The notes under the pieces were generated by a model. It saw only the letters and a program-made list of their open reading frames with translations. It was not told the DNA's origin and ran no database searches. This document shows, piece after piece, positions 26,244 through 56,191 of a stretch of 64,000 nt of DNA. The translations under genes and the position numbers were made by a program. The stretch's first letter is position 1. Every line of letters starts with the position of its first letter. The stretch is from an uncultured Bdellovibrionales bacterium (GTDB lineage Bacteria > Bdellovibrionota > Bdellovibrionia > Bdellovibrionales > Bdellovibrionaceae), in contig CAIYID010000008.1 in NCBI GenBank assembly GCA_903926205.1, positions 1-64,000 on the forward strand, in the 5' to 3' direction.

Positions 26244-26260
26244 TGTCTCAGGCTGAGACA
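26244..26260. promoter_or_regulatory. Perfect palindrome TGTCTCA-N3-TGAGACA
   Basis: A perfect 7-3-7 inverted repeat about 150 bases before the Fis-type regulator start. Near-copies with the same 3-base spacer occur at 36992-37008, 40554-40570 and 54028-54044, and half-sites at 45737 and 60008. Probably an operator for a dimeric regulator. Confidence 0.6.
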
Positions 26261-26407
26261 CTTTCAAGCTTTTCGTCCAAATTATTAGCGTTTTATTTTG
26301 AGAAAAAAATATATTTCGTTTGGCCGTTAATTCCCACAATGAATCGCCGATAGGTAAATGTGCGTCGAGTTGGAACGCTCAATGTATCAAATCGAGGGAG
26401 GTTAAAC

Positions 26408-26833
26408 ATGCCACGTACAACAGTTTATGTTGTGAGTGACGAAGCAGAAGTGGTGGAGAAAGCCAAAGCCTATTTTGGCCCACAGGGGATCACTATCACT
26501 TCATATAGTTCAAATCAATGGCGCGAGGGACTTGAGCAGCCACAGTTTCGCTCACAGCTTTCTGCCGGAACTCCAGCTTTAGCGGTTGGACTAGGCGGGA
26601 CTGATCGCAGTAACGTTTTGCCGTTTCCAGGAACGACTCCGTCGTATCCAGAAACAAAAACTGTAACGATGGAAGAACTAGAAAGTAAAGCCATCGAGGC
26701 AGCAATTGTGCAGCACCGTGGAAATCTCACGGAAGCCGCAAAAGCACTTGGCATCGGCCGTGCGACTTTGTATCGCAAAGTAAAACAATTTCATATCGAC
26801 CCCTCCCAAGCTCGTAAAAAAAGAGTGGCATAG
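26408..26833 (+). CDS. Short Fis-type HTH regulator with receiver-like stub
   Basis: 141 residues with ATG 26408 behind GGGAGG; the longer frame from 26360 is not supported. The C-terminus (about 95-132) is a Fis/NtrC-type HTH (NLTEAAKALGIGRATLYRKVKQ). The first ~30 residues (TTVYVVSDEAEVVEKAKAYF) resemble the opening strand and helix of a response-regulator receiver, but no phospho-acceptor Asp or AAA+ domain follows; instead there is a linker of about 60 residues. It is a DNA-binding regulator, perhaps descended from an NtrC-family protein by loss of its middle. A terminator follows at 26893. Confidence 0.8.
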   Translation: MPRTTVYVVSDEAEVVEKAKAYFGPQGITITSYSSNQWREGLEQPQFRSQLSAGTPALAVGLGGTDRSNVLPFPGTTPSYPETKTVTMEELESKAIEAAIVQHRGNLTEAAKALGIGRATLYRKVKQFHIDPSQARKKRVA

Positions 26834-35907: not shown

Positions 35908-36600
35908 ATGACCGAGGAAAAACCAGTTAAAGTTCTAATCATCGAAGATGAAAATGAAATTCGAGAAATTTTAGTGAGCAATCTAGAATCTTCTGGATTT
36001 ATTCCTCGCGGAATTGATGGCGGAAAAGAAGTGATTCTTCATCTTGAACAATTTTCTCCTGATGTCATTTTACTTGATCAAATTATGCCGGGAAAAACAG
36101 GACAAGAAGTTATGCAGGAAGTTCGAGCCAATGCGCGTTTCTGCAATATTCCAATTATCGTCGTGACAGGCTTGAATAGTGAAGAGCAAAAAATTGCGGC
36201 TTTAAATTTAGGTGCTGATGACTATGTGACAAAGCCGTACTCAACCAAAGAATTACAAGCAAGAATTTTAGCTTTGCTTCGTCGCTCGAATGTGGCTCAT
36301 AAATCTCAACAAAAAAATATTTCGATAAAAGATATCACGGTTGATTTAGGAGCTCATAAAGTTTTATTGAATGGCCAAGAAGTACCGCTCACTTTAACTG
36401 AATTTAAAATTCTTTGTGAGTTGATCAAACAATCGGGCCAAGTCTTGAGCCGCGATAGTTTGCGTGAACGAGCTCTGGGTAATTTAAATGTCACCGATCG
36501 AACGATTGATGTTCACATGGCCTCATTGCGAAAAAAATTAGCGCATATGGGTGACTCCATTGAAACAGTTCGTGGTGTTGGCTATCGAATGGCAGTTTGA
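35908..36600 (+). CDS. OmpR/PhoB-type response regulator
   Basis: 230 residues from ATG 35908, GGAGG upstream; an upstream TTG at 35863 is possible but unsupported. Receiver: EDENEI acidic pocket, phospho-acceptor Asp in ILLDQIMPGK (about 59), T in VTGLN and K in TKPY. C-terminal winged helix: LTLTEFKILCEL, RTIDVHMASLRKKL and GVGYRM. It binds tandem DNA repeats once phosphorylated. No kinase adjoins, so the partner could be either orphan kinase in the window or one elsewhere. Confidence 0.93.
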   Translation: MTEEKPVKVLIIEDENEIREILVSNLESSGFIPRGIDGGKEVILHLEQFSPDVILLDQIMPGKTGQEVMQEVRANARFCNIPIIVVTGLNSEEQKIAALNLGADDYVTKPYSTKELQARILALLRRSNVAHKSQQKNISIKDITVDLGAHKVLLNGQEVPLTLTEFKILCELIKQSGQVLSRDSLRERALGNLNVTDRTIDVHMASLRKKLAHMGDSIETVRGVGYRMAV

Positions 36601-36684: not shown

Positions 36685-36926
36685 AAATAATTGAAATAAT
36701 TGAAATTATTCGGTCTCAGAACTTTGGCCTGCGTCTTGCTTTATTCATTCATCAAGACGACCTGGCCGCTTCCACAATCGTGGATACCGATAAGCGAGCC
36801 GCGCAATCCAATCACTCATCCCACCTTGCTGGACGGGGAGATAAAAAATCTCCTCCCTCCAGTCCTGTCGTCAGGGGTGAAAAAGAACCTTTAACGGACC
36901 AAGAATGGGCTTCATCTAGAGCTTAG
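36685..36926 (+). pseudogene. Remnant or frame-disrupted small exported protein
   Basis: Two frames overlap. One (TTG at 36700) starts with a signal-like MKLFGLRTLACVLLYSFI. The other has no start codon but reads a soluble, protein-like tail (DDLAASTIVDTDKRAAQ, then GEKEPLTDQEWASS) ending at TAG 36924-36926. Joining them by a single frameshift would give a small secreted protein. Either a decayed gene or, less likely, one needing frameshifting. Confidence 0.35.
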
Positions 36927-37174
36927 GGTGTCTCAATTCTGAACACGAAAAAAAATGAATTATTTCAGAGGATTAGGTGGTTTTTTTTGATTTTCTCAAA
37001 TTGAGGCAACAAAAATTAATCACTCAATCTATTTGAAACCTGATAATTAATCGACCCTGTTTATTTCATAAAATTAATCGATTTCATATAGTTAGTAAAA
37101 TTTTTTACAAACATGGAACTCTGGGCTTTTGTTGGCGCGAAGATTGAATTACTCAAGTGTACGAGGTTCAGCAC
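36927..37174. other. AT-rich region before the matrixin gene
   Basis: No gene. It contains a TTTCTCA-N3-TGAGGCA palindrome at 36992-37008 (one of the 7-3-7 family), a TGTCTCA half-site at 36929-36935, and two ATTAATCGA copies around 37046 and 37073. Promoter elements for the protease gene probably lie here. Confidence 0.45.
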
Positions 37175-37825
37175 ATGCGGTATTTGATTGCACTACTACT
37201 TCCAGGTTTATTGGTATTGGCAGGATTACAGGCCTTCTCCAAAACTGAGGGCAATGCTTCCACACGTAGTGATTGGGAAGATGATAGCTGTGGTTTTGTT
37301 CAGAATATCTATAGCAAGAAATTATCTTGGCAGGGAAATCTTCCCATTAAACTTTATATTCACGAGTCCGTCCCTTCAAATATGAGACTTCCCATTCAAC
37401 GAGCCATCGACACTTGGGAAAAAACGAGCGGTAAAAAGTTATTTGAAATAGTCGCCACAGATAAGCGTGGTGGAAAAGACCTAAGTAATTTCAAGGATGG
37501 CACAAATACCATTTACTGGTTCAACAAAGGTGAATGGAAGGGTGACAAAGACGACCAAGCCAAGACTGTGATTTCATGGATTGGAAGTCAGATTAACCAA
37601 TCGAATATACTCATTAATTCTGATACAATGAAATTCTATTCTGAAATGGCGACGGGACTTAACCAAGTGGATCTTGAGAGCGTGATTCTTCATGAGCTGG
37701 GTCATGTGCTTGGTTTAAAACATAATGATAAACGCCCAGGAATTATGGCTACTTATTTAAAAGAAAACTCAGAAAGAAGAAACATTTTAACGGCCGACAT
37801 GGATTCAATTAGATGTGTGTATTAG
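37175..37825 (+). CDS. Secreted matrixin-family metalloprotease
   Basis: 216 residues from ATG 37175. A signal peptide (RYLIALLLPGLLVLAG) targets it outside the cytoplasm. The zinc site is complete: HELGHVLGLKH (about residue 173) with the Met-turn GIMATY downstream. There is a pair of cysteines (DSCGF near 39 and RCVY at the end) that may bond. No propeptide cysteine switch is evident. It probably digests proteins in the periplasm, outside the cell or in prey (inference). It stands alone between gene-poor flanks. Confidence 0.88.
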   Translation: MRYLIALLLPGLLVLAGLQAFSKTEGNASTRSDWEDDSCGFVQNIYSKKLSWQGNLPIKLYIHESVPSNMRLPIQRAIDTWEKTSGKKLFEIVATDKRGGKDLSNFKDGTNTIYWFNKGEWKGDKDDQAKTVISWIGSQINQSNILINSDTMKFYSEMATGLNQVDLESVILHELGHVLGLKHNDKRPGIMATYLKENSERRNILTADMDSIRCVY

Positions 37826-38898: not shown

Positions 38899-40425
38899 TC
38901 AAGCCGACGGCTTCGGGGTGGCTAGGCATTTGGGCAAGTGGATAGTAAATTCGACCCCTGGATTGGTGTTCTTGAAGCTGAGTTTTCCACCATGCTTTTC
39001 CACAATTCCTCTAGCAACACTGAGCCCGAGGCCGACGCCGCTGCCAACTGGTTTTGTCGTGAAAAACGGAGTCATAATTTTTGAAATATTCTCTTCCGCA
39101 ATGCCAGGTCCGTTGTCTCGACATTTAATTTCGATTTTTTCTTCAAGGTCATTGAATTCAATAAAGAGCTCTGGTTTTGCAATATCTTTCAGAACGTCGA
39201 CCGAATTATTAATTAAGGCCAGGATGGTTTGGATGATGCTATTTTTATGGCATAGAATATCTACCACTGGAATTGGTGCTAAGTGAATCTCAATTCCCTT
39301 GGCCGTGAGTTTCGCCTTCGAAAAGGAAATGACTGACTCGATGAGTTCCTGAAGCGATAATTTTTGTTCTGATTCAGTTCCTGAATATTCAGAAAAATTG
39401 AGAAGTCCGCTAACGATCTTCGTTGCGCGAATTGAGGCTCTTGAAATGGCATCCGTGCATCTCGTCAATTTTTCAGGATTGCTCGCATATTTCAAAATGA
39501 GTTCTGAATTCGCCGTGATGATGGCCAGGGGATTATTGATTTCGTGAGCGACTCCTCCGGCCATTTCTCCAAGAGCTGAAAATTTGGCAATTTGGACCAT
39601 CTCAGACTGTTTTTGAATAATTTCAGCATTTTTTGAGGCAATTTCTTCTTTGGCTTTTTTGAGTTCGTTGTTTTTCAAGCTCATGTAAAGGTTGTTGTAA
39701 TATTCGCGTCGTGCAAACAACTCCAGCAGGCGTGAAATAAACAAGAAAGCAAAAAGACTTGCGGTGTACCACATAAATCCATTCATAAAGAGTGCTAATT
39801 CCTGAGATCCCCATTTAGACTTAAATCCTGACTGAAGGACGATAGTCACGATGTAAAATAAAATTGAGTTGGAGACGCAAAGAAAGGTCGCATATTTAAA
39901 CAAAATTCGCCCTAGGCCGCAGGCCCAGAAATTTAAAAGCATAAGTCCGCCAAAGTAAGATCCATAGGCGACTTCAGAGGGAGGGGTTGAATATATAAGA
40001 TAATTAACTAAAAGCCCCGTGGCCATCCAGGGAACGCAAACGATCTCTTGAAGCCATCGGGCAGCGAATTTTTGATATTGAGAAATCAATACGAATGCCA
40101 GGAGGCACAACGGAATGATAATTCCTGCGCGTGCAAGCAAGGCCATGTTAAAGTTCGAGGGGCTCGAAAGTCTATCCAGCGGAATCAATGCAAGATGGAC
40201 AAGTCCCCCTGACACAGCAGCGAGCTTCGCTGAAAAGATCCCATTCCTGCAGAAATCATCAAAAAATTCTTTTTCAGTGACGATCGAACCAAAGCTAAAA
40301 TTGGCAAAGGTTGGATAACGAATTAAAATATCATCACTGACTGCGGGGCTGTCATCAATAACAGCTTTCAGTTTAGGCTTTTCCTGATCCTTAATATTAT
40401 CAAATCGATAGGTTTGTTCACTCAT
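38899..40425 (-). CDS. Membrane sensor histidine kinase
   Basis: 508 residues. A long N-terminal cytoplasmic segment (1-75) precedes about six membrane helices (80-235), a coiled-coil linker (LKNNELKKAKEEIASKNAEI), then His in MAGGVAHEINNPLAII (about 290), N box (LINNSVDVL), and G boxes DNGPGIAEENISK and GVGLGLSVARGIVEKHGG. Intact and NtrB-like, related to the kinase at 16514. No regulator is adjacent. A TGTCTTA-N3-TGAGACA palindrome lies about 130 bases upstream. Confidence 0.9.
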   Translation of the reverse strand: MSEQTYRFDNIKDQEKPKLKAVIDDSPAVSDDILIRYPTFANFSFGSIVTEKEFFDDFCRNGIFSAKLAAVSGGLVHLALIPLDRLSSPSNFNMALLARAGIIIPLCLLAFVLISQYQKFAARWLQEIVCVPWMATGLLVNYLIYSTPPSEVAYGSYFGGLMLLNFWACGLGRILFKYATFLCVSNSILFYIVTIVLQSGFKSKWGSQELALFMNGFMWYTASLFAFLFISRLLELFARREYYNNLYMSLKNNELKKAKEEIASKNAEIIQKQSEMVQIAKFSALGEMAGGVAHEINNPLAIITANSELILKYASNPEKLTRCTDAISRASIRATKIVSGLLNFSEYSGTESEQKLSLQELIESVISFSKAKLTAKGIEIHLAPIPVVDILCHKNSIIQTILALINNSVDVLKDIAKPELFIEFNDLEEKIEIKCRDNGPGIAEENISKIMTPFFTTKPVGSGVGLGLSVARGIVEKHGGKLSFKNTNPGVEFTIHLPKCLATPKPSA

Positions 40426-40553: not shown

Positions 40554-40570
40554 TGTCTTACAATGAGACA
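40554..40570. promoter_or_regulatory. 7-3-7 palindrome upstream of the histidine kinase
   Basis: TGTCTTA-CAA-TGAGACA, one mismatch from the perfect site at 26244-26260 and with the same spacer. It lies about 130 bases upstream of the minus-strand kinase start. Confidence 0.5.
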
Positions 40571-42247: not shown

Positions 42248-42619
42248 CTAGTTGTTCGCAGGCTTTCTTTCTGGACTTTTCGAGGTCGTAGTTTCGTCGG
42301 GTCTGCTACTAGGTAGGCCTGCAGCACTGTCTGTCTCGGCTTTTTCCGCAGCAAGTTCTTTGGGGCTTTTACAAATTGGTAGCAGGCCACCAGTACGGCC
42401 AGAGCATCTCCAAGTATCAATATAGGTGATGGTTTCGTTGGATTTTAGAGGATAATAGCCTCGGTATTGCTTTGGATCCAAACTTGATTTGACCAATTTT
42501 GGAGTTTCTTCCTCTGGAGATTTTATTTGGAGGAGAAACGCGCGATACTCGGCTTTGGTCCAGTCAGGAATCACCAGGCAAACCGCAAATAAAAATAAAA
42601 TCTTCTGAAGAGCCTTCAT
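42248..42619 (-). CDS. Small exported protein with proline/serine-rich tail
   Basis: 123 residues. The signal peptide (MKALQKILFLFAVCLVIPDW...KA) is followed by a short folded part with two cysteines (WRCSGRTGGLLPICKSP) and a low-complexity C-terminal third rich in Ser, Pro, Glu and Lys. Function unknown. It lies 39 bases before the coiled-coil/small-heat-shock fusion gene on the same strand. A repeat of the hairpin pair at 42673-42722 separates it from the gene above. Confidence 0.7.
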   Translation of the reverse strand: MKALQKILFLFAVCLVIPDWTKAEYRAFLLQIKSPEEETPKLVKSSLDPKQYRGYYPLKSNETITYIDTWRCSGRTGGLLPICKSPKELAAEKAETDSAAGLPSSRPDETTTSKSPERKPANN

Positions 42620-42672: not shown

Positions 42673-42722
42673 CAGATCAGTGGTGCTGATCTGGATATTG
42701 ACCGATCAGTGGTGCTGATCGG
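42673..42722. repeat. Twin hairpins with identical loops
   Basis: CAGATCAG-TGGTG-CTGATCTG (42673-42693) and CCGATCAG-TGGTG-CTGATCGG (42702-42722), both perfect 8-base-pair stems with the same 5-base loop, 8 bases apart. The second overlaps the last codons of the 42706-43053 gene. On the minus strand they could terminate, process or regulate the mRNA of the genes below. No T run follows directly. Confidence 0.65.
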
Positions 42723-44882: not shown

Positions 44883-45671
44883 TTAGAAACAAAGATTGCT
44901 TCCGAGAGTCGAGAATTGAGTCTCAGTGTAGCCAGAATTTCTATTTGCATAGAAGGGGTGAAGACCAAGCAAGGTGCTATTGTGTGTGAGGATATAGTTG
45001 TTTGGATTTGCTAAAAAAGAGGGAATCAACGCCTGCAAGTAGCGATCAGGGGACGCCGGAGCCGCTGAAGTTCCCATTCCATTTGTGTAAAGGGCTGCGC
45101 TCAGTACAGTTGATGTGGAGACGGAGCTTAAATCGATCACGAAAGTAATATTTTGCAGTGTTACGGCCGCCGAGGAATTGCTCACACCATTGGTCGTCGC
45201 GATCGAGGCTAATTGCTGCCAAGTCAGAGTGTACATACTACTAGATATCGAAGTGAATGATCCAGTGCCGGTATAATGTTCAAGAGTGAAGGGGACTTCC
45301 GTCATGGTCGTGTAACTCCCACTGGAATCAGTGCCATATGCCCAAAATGCGATGGTTGACCCCGCATTCACAAAGGCTGCAGGAAAAGCATTAAAGCGCA
45401 CACGAATTGAATTCATATTTTGCACGCCACCAGAAGAGTAAACTTCAAGACCCATTGAAAGATCGGAGATATTAGCAATGTCATGACTACAGTTGGTGAG
45501 GGCTTGCCCTGAAGAATTGAAGTTTGATGAGGACGTTGTGTTTCCACTTGTCGTCGTCGCAGTCGAACCAGGAGAGGAGTTGCTTGATTGAGAACTACAG
45601 CCCACCATACTGGTCATTGCCAGAGCTACGACGATGAGGGTTAAAATTTTATTTTGAAATTGAGAGTTCAT
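44883..45671 (-). CDS. Exported lipoprotein, serine/threonine-rich
   Basis: 262 residues from ATG 45671 (the ATG at 45686 is less likely). The signal peptide ends in a MVGC lipobox, followed by a linker of about 35 residues almost only Ser, Thr, Gly and Asn, then a beta-rich domain of about 210 residues with few charges and scattered cysteines. It resembles surface-exposed lipoproteins in which the linker lifts a small domain off the outer membrane. Family not recognised. Confidence 0.72.
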   Translation of the reverse strand: MNSQFQNKILTLIVVALAMTSMVGCSSQSSNSSPGSTATTTSGNTTSSSNFNSSGQALTNCSHDIANISDLSMGLEVYSSGGVQNMNSIRVRFNAFPAAFVNAGSTIAFWAYGTDSSGSYTTMTEVPFTLEHYTGTGSFTSISSSMYTLTWQQLASIATTNGVSNSSAAVTLQNITFVIDLSSVSTSTVLSAALYTNGMGTSAAPASPDRYLQALIPSFLANPNNYILTHNSTLLGLHPFYANRNSGYTETQFSTLGSNLCF

Positions 45672-45936
45672 AAATCCCCCGAGCAAAGTTAGTCGATACT
45701 CATAGAGTAAAGCAAAAGAGAGGCCATATATCAGTCTGAGACAGATAAAATACGAGGGAAAATCAAGGAGTTAAATTCCTGTGAAATTTCATTATGAGAA
45801 TGACTGTCAAAGCATTGAGCGAGTGCTCGCGATTTTGTAACAGAGTTTCACTTTGAGACGCTTTGCCGTGTTAAGAGAAAATCACAGAAATGACTTCGAG
45901 AAGTGTTTGTGTCATTTAGCGGAAGTTCTGTATCAC
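45672..45936. other. Promoter region between lipoprotein and acyl-CoA dehydrogenase
   Basis: No credible gene. A TGAGACA half-site of the recurring palindrome lies at 45737-45743 (minus strand TGTCTCA-N3-TGATATA). It probably holds the promoter of the lipoprotein gene. Confidence 0.4.
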
Positions 45937-52555: not shown

Positions 52556-53887
52556 TCAAAGATTGTCGTTCTTGATCGCTTGTCTTAAACGAGGCTGATT
52601 CGTTGCCTTTGGATCGGTGATGGGTAACTTCTGCAAAATTGCATGAGCCGTTTCCTTCGGCGTAGGATAGAAACTGGTTGAAACAAAGGTGTCTTCACTA
52701 TGCCCCGAGCCACCAAAGGCTGTGATGCCCTGATCCTCTTTGACGACGGCTTTATAGAGATTTAATTTCCGATATTGTGCGGTCTTATTTACTAACTTTT
52801 CATCGGCATCACCGGTGGAGATAATGTAGCGTTTGACTTGCTCTGGATCGGTGATACCTCGACGAGCCATCACCAGCACGGCCGCTCCTGTCACAAAAGC
52901 AGTCGCTTGCGAAGTTCCAGTCATATACCCGTAAGCATTTCCTGGCAAAAGTGACAAGATATTTTGTCCGGGAGCTGCGATGTCGACTGATTTTATTCCA
53001 TAGTTTGAAGAAGCGAGCACTTGGTGGTTGGGGTCTAAGGCTGTCACAGAAATAATATTACTTAAGCCATAGTCCGCGGGATAATAATGGTTGATATCTG
53101 AATTTGACCTTTCGTTTCCTGCGGCTGCAACAAAGAGGATTCCCGCTTTGCGAGCTTCTTCGATGGCATCGTGTTCCTCTTGACTGAATTCAGTTCCGCC
53201 ACCGGAATAATTGATGATTTGTGCATTCATTGATTTGGCATAATGAATGGCGTTCACAGTGTTGCGTAAATTATCTGTGCCCACAACTTTTGGATCGAAA
53301 TACTTCAAGCACATAATACTGACATCAGGAGAAATTCCAGCGATGCCTTTGTTATTGCCGGCTTCCGCTCCAATAATTCCAGCGATATGAGTGCCATGCC
53401 CGTGGTTGTCAGTAAGATCGCCATTGTTAGAGACAAAATTCCAGCCATGCACATCATCAACGAAACCATTGCCATCATCGTCGATACCATTAGTTGCTTT
53501 ATCGTGACCTTTGCTGTCTTTTCCTGATTCGCCCGGATTGGTCCAAATATTAGTTTGTAAATCTTCATGATTAATATCACAGCCAGTGTCGATCACTGCG
53601 ACCACGATATTTTTACTGCCTTTGGTGATATTCCACGCTTTCAAAGCGCTCACATTGTGAATACCCCAGGCTTGGGCGATCGCGGGATCATTCATGATGA
53701 CACTGGGCTCATCATGAATTTTGGTGGTGGTATTGGTTGCATCAGGCAGTTCTAAATTTCGTTTATTGGATTTAACTTTCGACGAGAATGAAGATTCACC
53801 GTGATTGTAGTAAAAATACAATCCCACGCCAAAGCTTGCAATTGCGATGAGAACTGCCGTTCGAAAAAACCACTTTGAGACACTCAT
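52556..53887 (-). CDS. Subtilisin-family (S8) serine protease
   Basis: 443 residues from ATG 53887 behind GCGGAGG. An N-terminal hydrophobic segment (about 8-24) is a signal anchor or signal peptide. The triad is complete: Asp in AVIDTGCD (about 98), His in HGHGTHIAG (about 165) and Ser in GTSQATAF (about 325). DDDGNGFVDDVHGW (calcium-like loop) follows the Asp. Residues 30-70 may be a short propeptide. The C-terminal ~90 residues after the domain are unusual. A TNTCTCA palindrome lies about 145 bases upstream. Confidence 0.9.
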   Translation of the reverse strand: MSVSKWFFRTAVLIAIASFGVGLYFYYNHGESSFSSKVKSNKRNLELPDATNTTTKIHDEPSVIMNDPAIAQAWGIHNVSALKAWNITKGSKNIVVAVIDTGCDINHEDLQTNIWTNPGESGKDSKGHDKATNGIDDDGNGFVDDVHGWNFVSNNGDLTDNHGHGTHIAGIIGAEAGNNKGIAGISPDVSIMCLKYFDPKVVGTDNLRNTVNAIHYAKSMNAQIINYSGGGTEFSQEEHDAIEEARKAGILFVAAAGNERSNSDINHYYPADYGLSNIISVTALDPNHQVLASSNYGIKSVDIAAPGQNILSLLPGNAYGYMTGTSQATAFVTGAAVLVMARRGITDPEQVKRYIISTGDADEKLVNKTAQYRKLNLYKAVVKEDQGITAFGGSGHSEDTFVSTSFYPTPKETAHAILQKLPITDPKATNQPRLRQAIKNDNL

Positions 53888-54027: not shown

Positions 54028-54044
54028 TCTCTCAATTTGAGACA
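54028..54044. promoter_or_regulatory. 7-3-7 palindrome between slt and the subtilase
   Basis: TCTCTCA-ATT-TGAGACA, one mismatch from the perfect site at 26244. It spans the slt stop codon and lies about 145 bases upstream of the subtilase start on the same strand. Confidence 0.5.
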
Positions 54045-56191
54045 GTGTTCTTATTGTTGAGATTTTCCAGTGCGCTCTTGTTGAGTTGTAAATTCTCGAG
54101 GCAATTTCGAGGAAAGGGGAGGCTTTCTCCAATTTTATTCATTCTTCGGTAGAAAATATAATTGCGAAGCACCAACTTGACGTAAGCCCGGGTTTCTTCG
54201 TAGGGAATGTCTTCTATGAATTCCAGAGGATCTTCGCGCAGTCTTGTTTTGAGCCAAGTATTGATGGCTTTCTCACTCGCATTGTAAGCCGCAGCGGTTA
54301 ATATCAACTGACCATGGTATTTATGCGATAACTGAGACAAGAGAGAGACTCCGACAGGAATATTGATTTTTGGCAAATAAAGATCTTCGTGGTTTTCCAA
54401 ATGCACATTCGCATTTTTTTCGTGCAATTTGGCAATAGTGGGTAGCAATTGCATTAAGCCAAAGGCATCGGCGGAACTTCTGGCCATGGGATCAAAAGAA
54501 CTTTCTTGGCGAATGATGGATAGAACTAACTCTGATTCGATACCAAACTTTGTGGCGGCGGGTTCTATCAGTTCAAGATATTTTTTAGGAAAGAGTAATT
54601 CGGGATGTGTTTCCAAAAGTTTATTTTTTGTATCGGAATCAAGTAAAGCTAATTGGGTAAAAAGCGGTTGATAGAGGCCTCCCTCGGCTAGATTTTTGAA
54701 AATAAAAAGCATGACTTCCTGGTTTAACACCGCAGGCGTGCGAAGCTGGGGAAAACTGGTAGTGATGAGTTTTGCTAAAACTTCTTTTTCTTCAACTTCA
54801 ACCAGCGCGCGCATTTTTCTTTGAAGCGTAAGATCCAAAGGTAAGTTGGGCGTTGGTTCAATTGATCCCGAATTATTTATTTTTAAAGCTGGAATGGCCT
54901 CGTTCAATTTATAGAAAGAAACTAAACCATAATAACCGAGAGGATCTTCTTCCGTGAGGCCTTTAAAAAGGCGATGACTCACCTCGGGTTGCCCAGCTTG
55001 TTCCCAGCTCTGGCCTTGCCAAAAACGATATTTAAATTTGGCATATCGATCATTCGAAATTTTTTCCAACTCGGCAAACTTGACAGCGGCTTTTTCAAAT
55101 TCTTCTGTTTTTCTTAAAATCCAGGCTTGCGCAAAGAGGATTTTCTCTTTCGCGGTTTGTGAATCGTGAACTTCAGTTTCTGCAACTTGAAAATATTTTA
55201 TGGCGGATTTTTCATCGTGAGCTTCTTCCGCAATTTTTCCTAAAATAAAATTGATGTCGTTTAAAGGAAAGCGACCTTTTAATTCTTTCATGGCTTGATT
55301 GAGTGTTTGGCGTGCCATCGAAATATCACCCTCAGTCCAATGAGCGCGGGCTAAGGTCAGGTAGGCTTCATTTATTCGACCTTCATTAGAGGATTTCTCT
55401 GTGCGATTTTTTTTAAGCCACGTGACCAATTCTTGTGCGGCTTTAATATGATCTGTTTTTTTTTGCTCTAATTTGTAAGTACTTCGAATTTGTTTAAGGG
55501 CTTGATATTTTTCATCCGCAGAAAATTCTTTATCACTGAGAATTTTCTGACAATACTTGCGAGCTTCATTGAACTCTCTTTGTAATAAAAAATCTTGAGA
55601 GATTCGAAACCATTCTTTTTTGCTTGGACTCGGATTTAATCTTGGCGCCACATGATAATATCTATCTTGGGTGTCGCTCAAGAGTTCTTGATCTTGACTT
55701 AATTTGGCTTGCTCGAGGGCGCGCTGGAGGAATTCTAATTTTTCTTTATTGAGAATTGATTGTTTAGAGCGTTCAATCAAGGCTTTCGCTAACTTTTTTG
55801 AGTCGTTGCTGACTTCTGCTTCCCGTAATTCTCGCTCCACATTCAATGGATTGAGCCAAGGTTTTTCCTCCAGCCACTCTTTTGTGATCACGGGAAGAGC
55901 CCCGGGATGTTCACAAGTAAGGTGAGCCCGCATCAAGGCTAAATCAGATAATAAAAAAGTAGAATTACTGGCTAGATAGGTAAAGATTTCGCAAGCCTGT
56001 GGAGGAGTGTTGGCACTAACAGCTCTTGCTAATTTATATTTCGCAAGCCATTCCTTTTGCTGAAGGGTTTGCTTTTGACTTAAATCCTCGAGGTTGGTTT
56101 CCTTATGAGTGGTACTGCAACTTAAACTCAAGGCGGCAAAAATAAAAAAAGCCGGCAAAAGAGAAAAAAAATTTGTTACTACTGAGCGCAT
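54032..56191 (-). CDS. Soluble lytic murein transglycosylase-like lipoprotein
   Basis: 719 residues. The signal peptide ends in a LSLSC lipobox (Cys near 25), so this Slt-like protein is lipid-anchored. A long superhelix of helical (TPR-like) repeats (about 30-530) precedes the SLT domain, with catalytic Glu in RQESSFDPMARSSADAFGLMQLLP (about 563; the first Glu of ESS) and a PKINIPVGVSLLSQL/AAYNASEKAINTWL region. It cleaves the glycan strand to 1,6-anhydromuramyl products. It lies between the subtilase and htpX. Confidence 0.9.
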   Translation of the reverse strand: MRSVVTNFFSLLPAFFIFAALSLSCSTTHKETNLEDLSQKQTLQQKEWLAKYKLARAVSANTPPQACEIFTYLASNSTFLLSDLALMRAHLTCEHPGALPVITKEWLEEKPWLNPLNVERELREAEVSNDSKKLAKALIERSKQSILNKEKLEFLQRALEQAKLSQDQELLSDTQDRYYHVAPRLNPSPSKKEWFRISQDFLLQREFNEARKYCQKILSDKEFSADEKYQALKQIRSTYKLEQKKTDHIKAAQELVTWLKKNRTEKSSNEGRINEAYLTLARAHWTEGDISMARQTLNQAMKELKGRFPLNDINFILGKIAEEAHDEKSAIKYFQVAETEVHDSQTAKEKILFAQAWILRKTEEFEKAAVKFAELEKISNDRYAKFKYRFWQGQSWEQAGQPEVSHRLFKGLTEEDPLGYYGLVSFYKLNEAIPALKINNSGSIEPTPNLPLDLTLQRKMRALVEVEEKEVLAKLITTSFPQLRTPAVLNQEVMLFIFKNLAEGGLYQPLFTQLALLDSDTKNKLLETHPELLFPKKYLELIEPAATKFGIESELVLSIIRQESSFDPMARSSADAFGLMQLLPTIAKLHEKNANVHLENHEDLYLPKINIPVGVSLLSQLSHKYHGQLILTAAAYNASEKAINTWLKTRLREDPLEFIEDIPYEETRAYVKLVLRNYIFYRRMNKIGESLPFPRNCLENLQLNKSALENLNNKNTVSN

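Follow-up and report, generated by a model that had tools for sequence, protein, structure and literature searches.

Several described regulatory systems can be compared with the operator considered here. NtrC-family activators of sigma-54 promoters combine an HTH_8 DNA-binding domain with an AAA+ domain, and they act from palindromic upstream activating sequences. Escherichia coli Fis, a small stand-alone HTH_8 protein with a degenerate binding site, activates from upstream and represses its own gene, and dimeric HTH_8 domains fit dyad-symmetric operators of the kind reported below. In Bdellovibrio bacteriovorus, FliA (sigma-28) governs an attack-phase regulon whose promoters are of the TTAAG-N16-CCGATA type, with CCGATA as the -10 core. 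The accessible part of the study in question describes sigma-28 boxes alone; for the remaining third of the attack-phase promoters, Karunker et al. report no strong motif (PMC3627812). A search of the Bdellovibrio literature returned no mention of the palindrome described here.

The palindrome, a 17-letter dyad of the form TGTCTCA-N3-TGAGACA, recurs in a 64-kb stretch of DNA from an uncultured Bdellovibrionales bacterium (hereafter the window). Every site position given in the preliminary description was recovered in the window; the copy reported as perfect has no mismatch, and the near-copies with a 3-base spacer carry one or two (Table 1). Of the three half-sites also reported, the one at 45737 proved to be the right arm of a two-mismatch palindrome (45727-45743), while those at 36929 and 60008 were set aside, the opposite arm being mismatched at 4 of 7 bases. 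The suggested link to clpS/pilA is left without a basis, because these half-sites lack a second arm in this way and the bare 7-mer occurs 12 times in the window. Allowing up to three mismatches, the window holds 8 matches against 2.87 expected, a number reached by none of 100 shuffles. The site at 54028-54044 overlaps the last codons, or 3' end, of an SLT gene (54032-56191, minus strand).

Table 1. Operator copies, regulator gene and regulator promoter in the window
Feature	Position	Strand	Context or basis
Operator TGTCTCA-GGC-TGAGACA, perfect	26244-26260		Centre 156 bp upstream of Fis-type regulator gene
FliA (sigma-28)-type promoter TTAA-N15-GCCGATAG of regulator gene	26327-26353	+	CCGATA/T box in orthologues
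Degenerate operator ATTCCCACAATGAATCG in promoter spacer	26330-26346		Lies within the 26327-26353 promoter
Stand-alone HTH_8 (Fis/NtrC-type) regulator, 141 aa, proposed operator binder	26408-26833	+	Pfam, orthologues, AlphaFold model
Operator, 2 mismatches	36992-37008		175 bp upstream of matrixin metalloprotease gene (37175-37825, +)
Operator, 1 mismatch	40554-40570		136 bp upstream of histidine kinase gene (38899-40425, -)
Operator, 2 mismatches	45727-45743		63 bp upstream of lipoprotein gene (44883-45671, -)
Operator, 1 mismatch	54028-54044		About 150 bp upstream of subtilase gene (52556-53887, -)

Pattern searches and retrieved sequence stretches, on which the statistics are based, extend this picture to whole genomes. 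The source genome (3.34 Mb) contains 8 sites at up to one mismatch and 56 at up to two, compared with 0 and 9 for a control in which the same pattern is read backwards. Across the order, identified as Bdellovibrionales from named loci, sites at up to one mismatch are present in 140 of 141 genomes, mostly 3-40 in each against controls of mostly 0-2, several of these genomes being incomplete and related ones not independent. Elsewhere in the phylum, site counts in 228 genomes were at control level. The spacing is equally strict: when spacers of 0-10 bases were allowed, nearly all exact-arm matches listed had exactly 3, the four listed exceptions having 0, 4, 8 and 10. Judged by its sequence signature, TGTCTCA-N3-TGAGACA is a real regulatory operator.

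The placement of the sites points the same way. An equal frequency inside genes is ruled out, as 51 of 64 sites at up to one mismatch in four genomes are intergenic in a setting where non-coding DNA makes up about 17%, with genes called by a simple home-made caller and gene starts taken from simple scripts. All but one of these 51 (50/51) lie upstream of at least one gene start. A further 72 sites, drawn largely from other genomes and for the most part perfect, form a second set, of which 59 fall outside genes. Overall, the sites show a strong preference for positions 20-200 bp upstream of gene starts.

Promoter elements accompany the sites as well. CCGATA occurs between site and gene start in 18 of 63 targets but in 4 of 133 control upstream regions, which were taken from neighbouring genes, and the second set gives a similar result (17/71 versus 2/70). 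Combined, 35 of 134 sites have this FliA-type box downstream as opposed to 6 of 203 controls (p = 4e-10), which rules out the absence of a link with promoters. In the second set, 39-66 bp usually separate the palindrome centre from the CCGATA downstream of it, which places the site immediately before the -35 box, a position typical of activators.

The products of target genes tend to look exported under a rough signal-peptide rule (34/63 versus 33/109 other genes, p = 0.003; 43/67 versus 32/79 in the second set). Targets common to several genera include the regulator itself, a matrixin, a PilZ-like protein and large exported proteins, among others; for example, a related matrixin gene in another genome (G007) also has a one-mismatch operator upstream. 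The TAD flp1-flp2 operon is an operator target both in the source genome and in B. bacteriovorus HD100, where a one-mismatch site precedes the flp1 promoter, which is FliA-dependent by experiment and drives a gene needed for predation (PMC5430801). The preliminary description had proposed that a dimeric regulator binds the palindrome and so controls protease and envelope genes. As a prediction, this is supported by the dyad symmetry, the strict N3 spacer and the intergenic sites upstream of gene starts, and further by the enrichment of exported products, the matrixin protease that is a target in a Bdellovibrio genome as well and the restriction to one order.

Other targets were observed at individual loci. 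The window histidine kinase and a related gene elsewhere in the source genome (L009) share 32% identity and each follow an operator-like site, that of the second gene having 2 mismatches, so the regulon may feed signalling. In the source genome and its congener (L002 and L290), a perfect operator lies between divergent genes for a lipoprotein and a 279-aa protein, and the lipoprotein gene has a near-consensus sigma-54 promoter (TGGCAC/T-N6-TTGCAAT). In genome G031 (L287), a perfect operator separates cheW-like and cheA-like genes, with a GCCGATAAG box on the cheA-like side.

The perfect copy in the window lies beside the start of the Fis-type regulator gene, and exact or near copies occur at about the same distance from the orthologous gene in several other genera. 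The encoded protein matches Pfam HTH_8 (PF02954) with 53.7 bits against a curated cut-off of 22; no AAA+ Sigma54_activat domain was found in it, only HTH families being matched in 141-157 aa. Orthologues at E <= 1e-8 are present in 127 of the 141 genomes of the order. Outside the order, no stand-alone orthologue was detected, and the matches there are HTH domains of larger activators. Among 58 orthologues, residues 105-126 show essentially no variation, and even strongly diverged orthologues retain the recognition helix GRATLYRK.

The AlphaFold model of the regulator (mean pLDDT 77.7, pTM 0.39) has a beta-alpha-beta unit at the N-terminus, joined by a disordered linker (57-82) to the HTH domain, which superposes on the DNA-binding domains of NtrC1, NtrC4 and Fis (rmsd 0.7 for NtrC1/NtrC4). 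The proposed binder thus shares its DNA-binding domain with NtrC-family activators, as its operator shares with theirs a palindromic form and a position upstream of promoters, but it differs from them in having no AAA+ domain and in sites tied more to FliA than to sigma-54 promoters. It resembles E. coli Fis in being a small stand-alone HTH_8 protein. Unlike Fis, it is restricted to one order, is paired with a high-specificity 17-bp dyad and is predicted to combine a partial receiver-like beta-alpha-beta fold with the disordered linker in its N-terminal half. Full-length orthology to Fis, including its N-terminal beta-hairpin arms, was not found, whole-chain comparison of the predicted model giving no significant match.

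The promoter of the regulator gene provides a further layer of evidence. CCGATA or CCGATT is present in 101 of 106 distinct orthologue upstream regions, mostly about 60 bp before the start, and in 16% of 421 control regions; by its promoter, the regulator gene belongs with FliA (sigma-28) controlled genes of the TAAA-N15-GCCGATAA type. The promoter spacer is itself conserved as TTCTCAnnnTGA, and a TCTCAnnnTGA core (at least 6 of 8 positions) is found in 80 of 100 regulator promoters versus 0 of 42 other CCGATA promoters. The position of this conserved core, inside the -35/-10 spacer, is consistent with autorepression. Exact operators occur upstream of 5 of 106 orthologues versus 0 of 421 control genes, and operators at up to three mismatches upstream of 34% versus 11%. 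Full palindromes lie upstream of the regulator gene in several genera, around -120 to -245; in Bdellovibrio itself, the regulator promoter retains just the weak spacer operator and a half-site.

The stand-alone HTH_8 protein is the most likely predicted reader of the operator: its gene adjoins the perfect site, its autoregulatory sites are conserved, its taxonomic range matches that of the motif, and the reading head is invariant. Probably, then, the palindrome is the operator of the protein encoded at 26408-26833, which would be made under FliA control, activate its targets from upstream and repress itself. The regulator gene would be transcribed from its FliA (sigma-28) promoter and its product would dimerise, placing one recognition helix on each arm (TGTCTCA/TGAGACA). 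On FliA promoters the dimer would sit 40-65 bp upstream of the -10 box, and from there, as from sites upstream of sigma-54-like or other promoters, it would most likely activate its target genes. Genes activated in this way would encode exported hydrolases, lipoproteins, the TAD pilus and motility or chemotaxis functions. When the dimer occupies the weak operator in the -35/-10 spacer of the regulator promoter, it would repress its own gene, and this pairing of autorepression with upstream activation would follow the same logic as in E. coli Fis.

The presence of the regulator and the abundance of its proposed sites vary together to some extent. Motif density is lower in genomes where the orthologue has diverged or been lost (Mann-Whitney p = 2e-4, ignoring phylogeny), a trend only, as the comparison is confounded by assembly gaps and phylogeny. 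One 4-Mb genome of the same family (G017; L066, L394) has the regulator and a FliA-like promoter, yet 0 sites at up to one mismatch; its operators may have drifted.

A different reader is conceivable, namely a sigma-54 activator with AAA+ and HTH_8 domains for which the palindrome would be the upstream activating sequence, the stand-alone protein sharing or competing for its sites. About 13 further HTH_8 proteins, the majority with the size of activators, are encoded in the source genome, and some genomes without a detected stand-alone orthologue keep 7-18 sites, although most such assemblies are fragmented or incomplete. Sigma-54-like TGGC-N7-TTGC elements are also mildly enriched near and downstream of the sites by a simple score (28/134 versus 18/203, p = 0.002), with strong examples at perfect-site targets (L002, L290, L333 and L355), and these would suit an AAA+ activator better. 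Their enrichment is nevertheless much weaker than that of FliA promoters, which need no AAA+ activator. Moreover, the recognition helix of the regulator recurs in no other HTH_8 protein of the source genome. None of the other HTH_8 genes there has a site at up to one mismatch nearby, and a single one has a site at all, with 2 mismatches and about 500 bp away. Since this reading would also fail to account for the operator core that the stand-alone gene carries in its FliA promoter, it is considered unlikely.

Still less probable is a reader from another family, such as TetR, MarR or LacI, with the Fis-type gene among its targets. Odd-length palindromes are bound by many families, but dimeric HTH_8 domains suit such dyads too, and among sampled targets in four genomes the Fis-type gene is the sole regulator gene recurring in three. 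A role in chromosome organisation, suggested by the resemblance of the arms to parS (TGTTTCA-CG-TGAAACA), is rejected because the copies are dispersed, have an N3 spacer and tend strongly to precede gene starts and FliA promoters by 20-200 bp.

Control by the stand-alone HTH_8 protein, the preferred reading, also bears on Bdellovibrio predation. The regulator gene and part of its targets share the promoter type of the B. bacteriovorus FliA attack-phase regulon, but the palindrome and the regulator do not figure in that regulon as described in the accessible part of its source (PMC3627812). With a FliA promoter, the regulator would be made in the attack phase in predatory members, an assignment transferred from B. 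bacteriovorus through the promoter type, which would apply to the window organism if that is itself a predator. On this basis, it is tentatively suggested that FliA and the HTH_8 regulator could give the Bdellovibrio attack-phase programme a second layer that extends across the order. This would be a feed-forward loop with autorepression, in which the regulator together with FliA, and partly sigma-54, would switch on secreted enzymes, the TAD pilus and prey-directed surface proteins. If so, the HTH_8 protein would be one missing regulator of attack-phase genes beyond FliA. What is gained is an operator and a candidate protein that can both be named, are conserved throughout the order and connect to the TAD pilus operon, which predation needs.

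Two FliA-controlled regulators listed in the accessible part of the attack-phase study (PMC3627812), bd0931 and bd1891, were considered as the HD100 orthologue. The first was rejected, as it belongs to the MerR family (PMC5941755), and the second is unlikely, judging from the map position of the HD100 orthologue (1,174,418-1,174,849).

Two further FliA-like boxes were observed in the window. One -10 box, ACCGATAAG at 36786 (plus strand), falls within the 575 bases that separate the matrixin gene from a response regulator gene (ending at 36600), and may drive a short transcript. Another, GCCGATAA at 42673 (minus strand), lies about 54 bp upstream of a 123-aa open reading frame (42248-42619, minus strand), possibly a FliA-driven gene.
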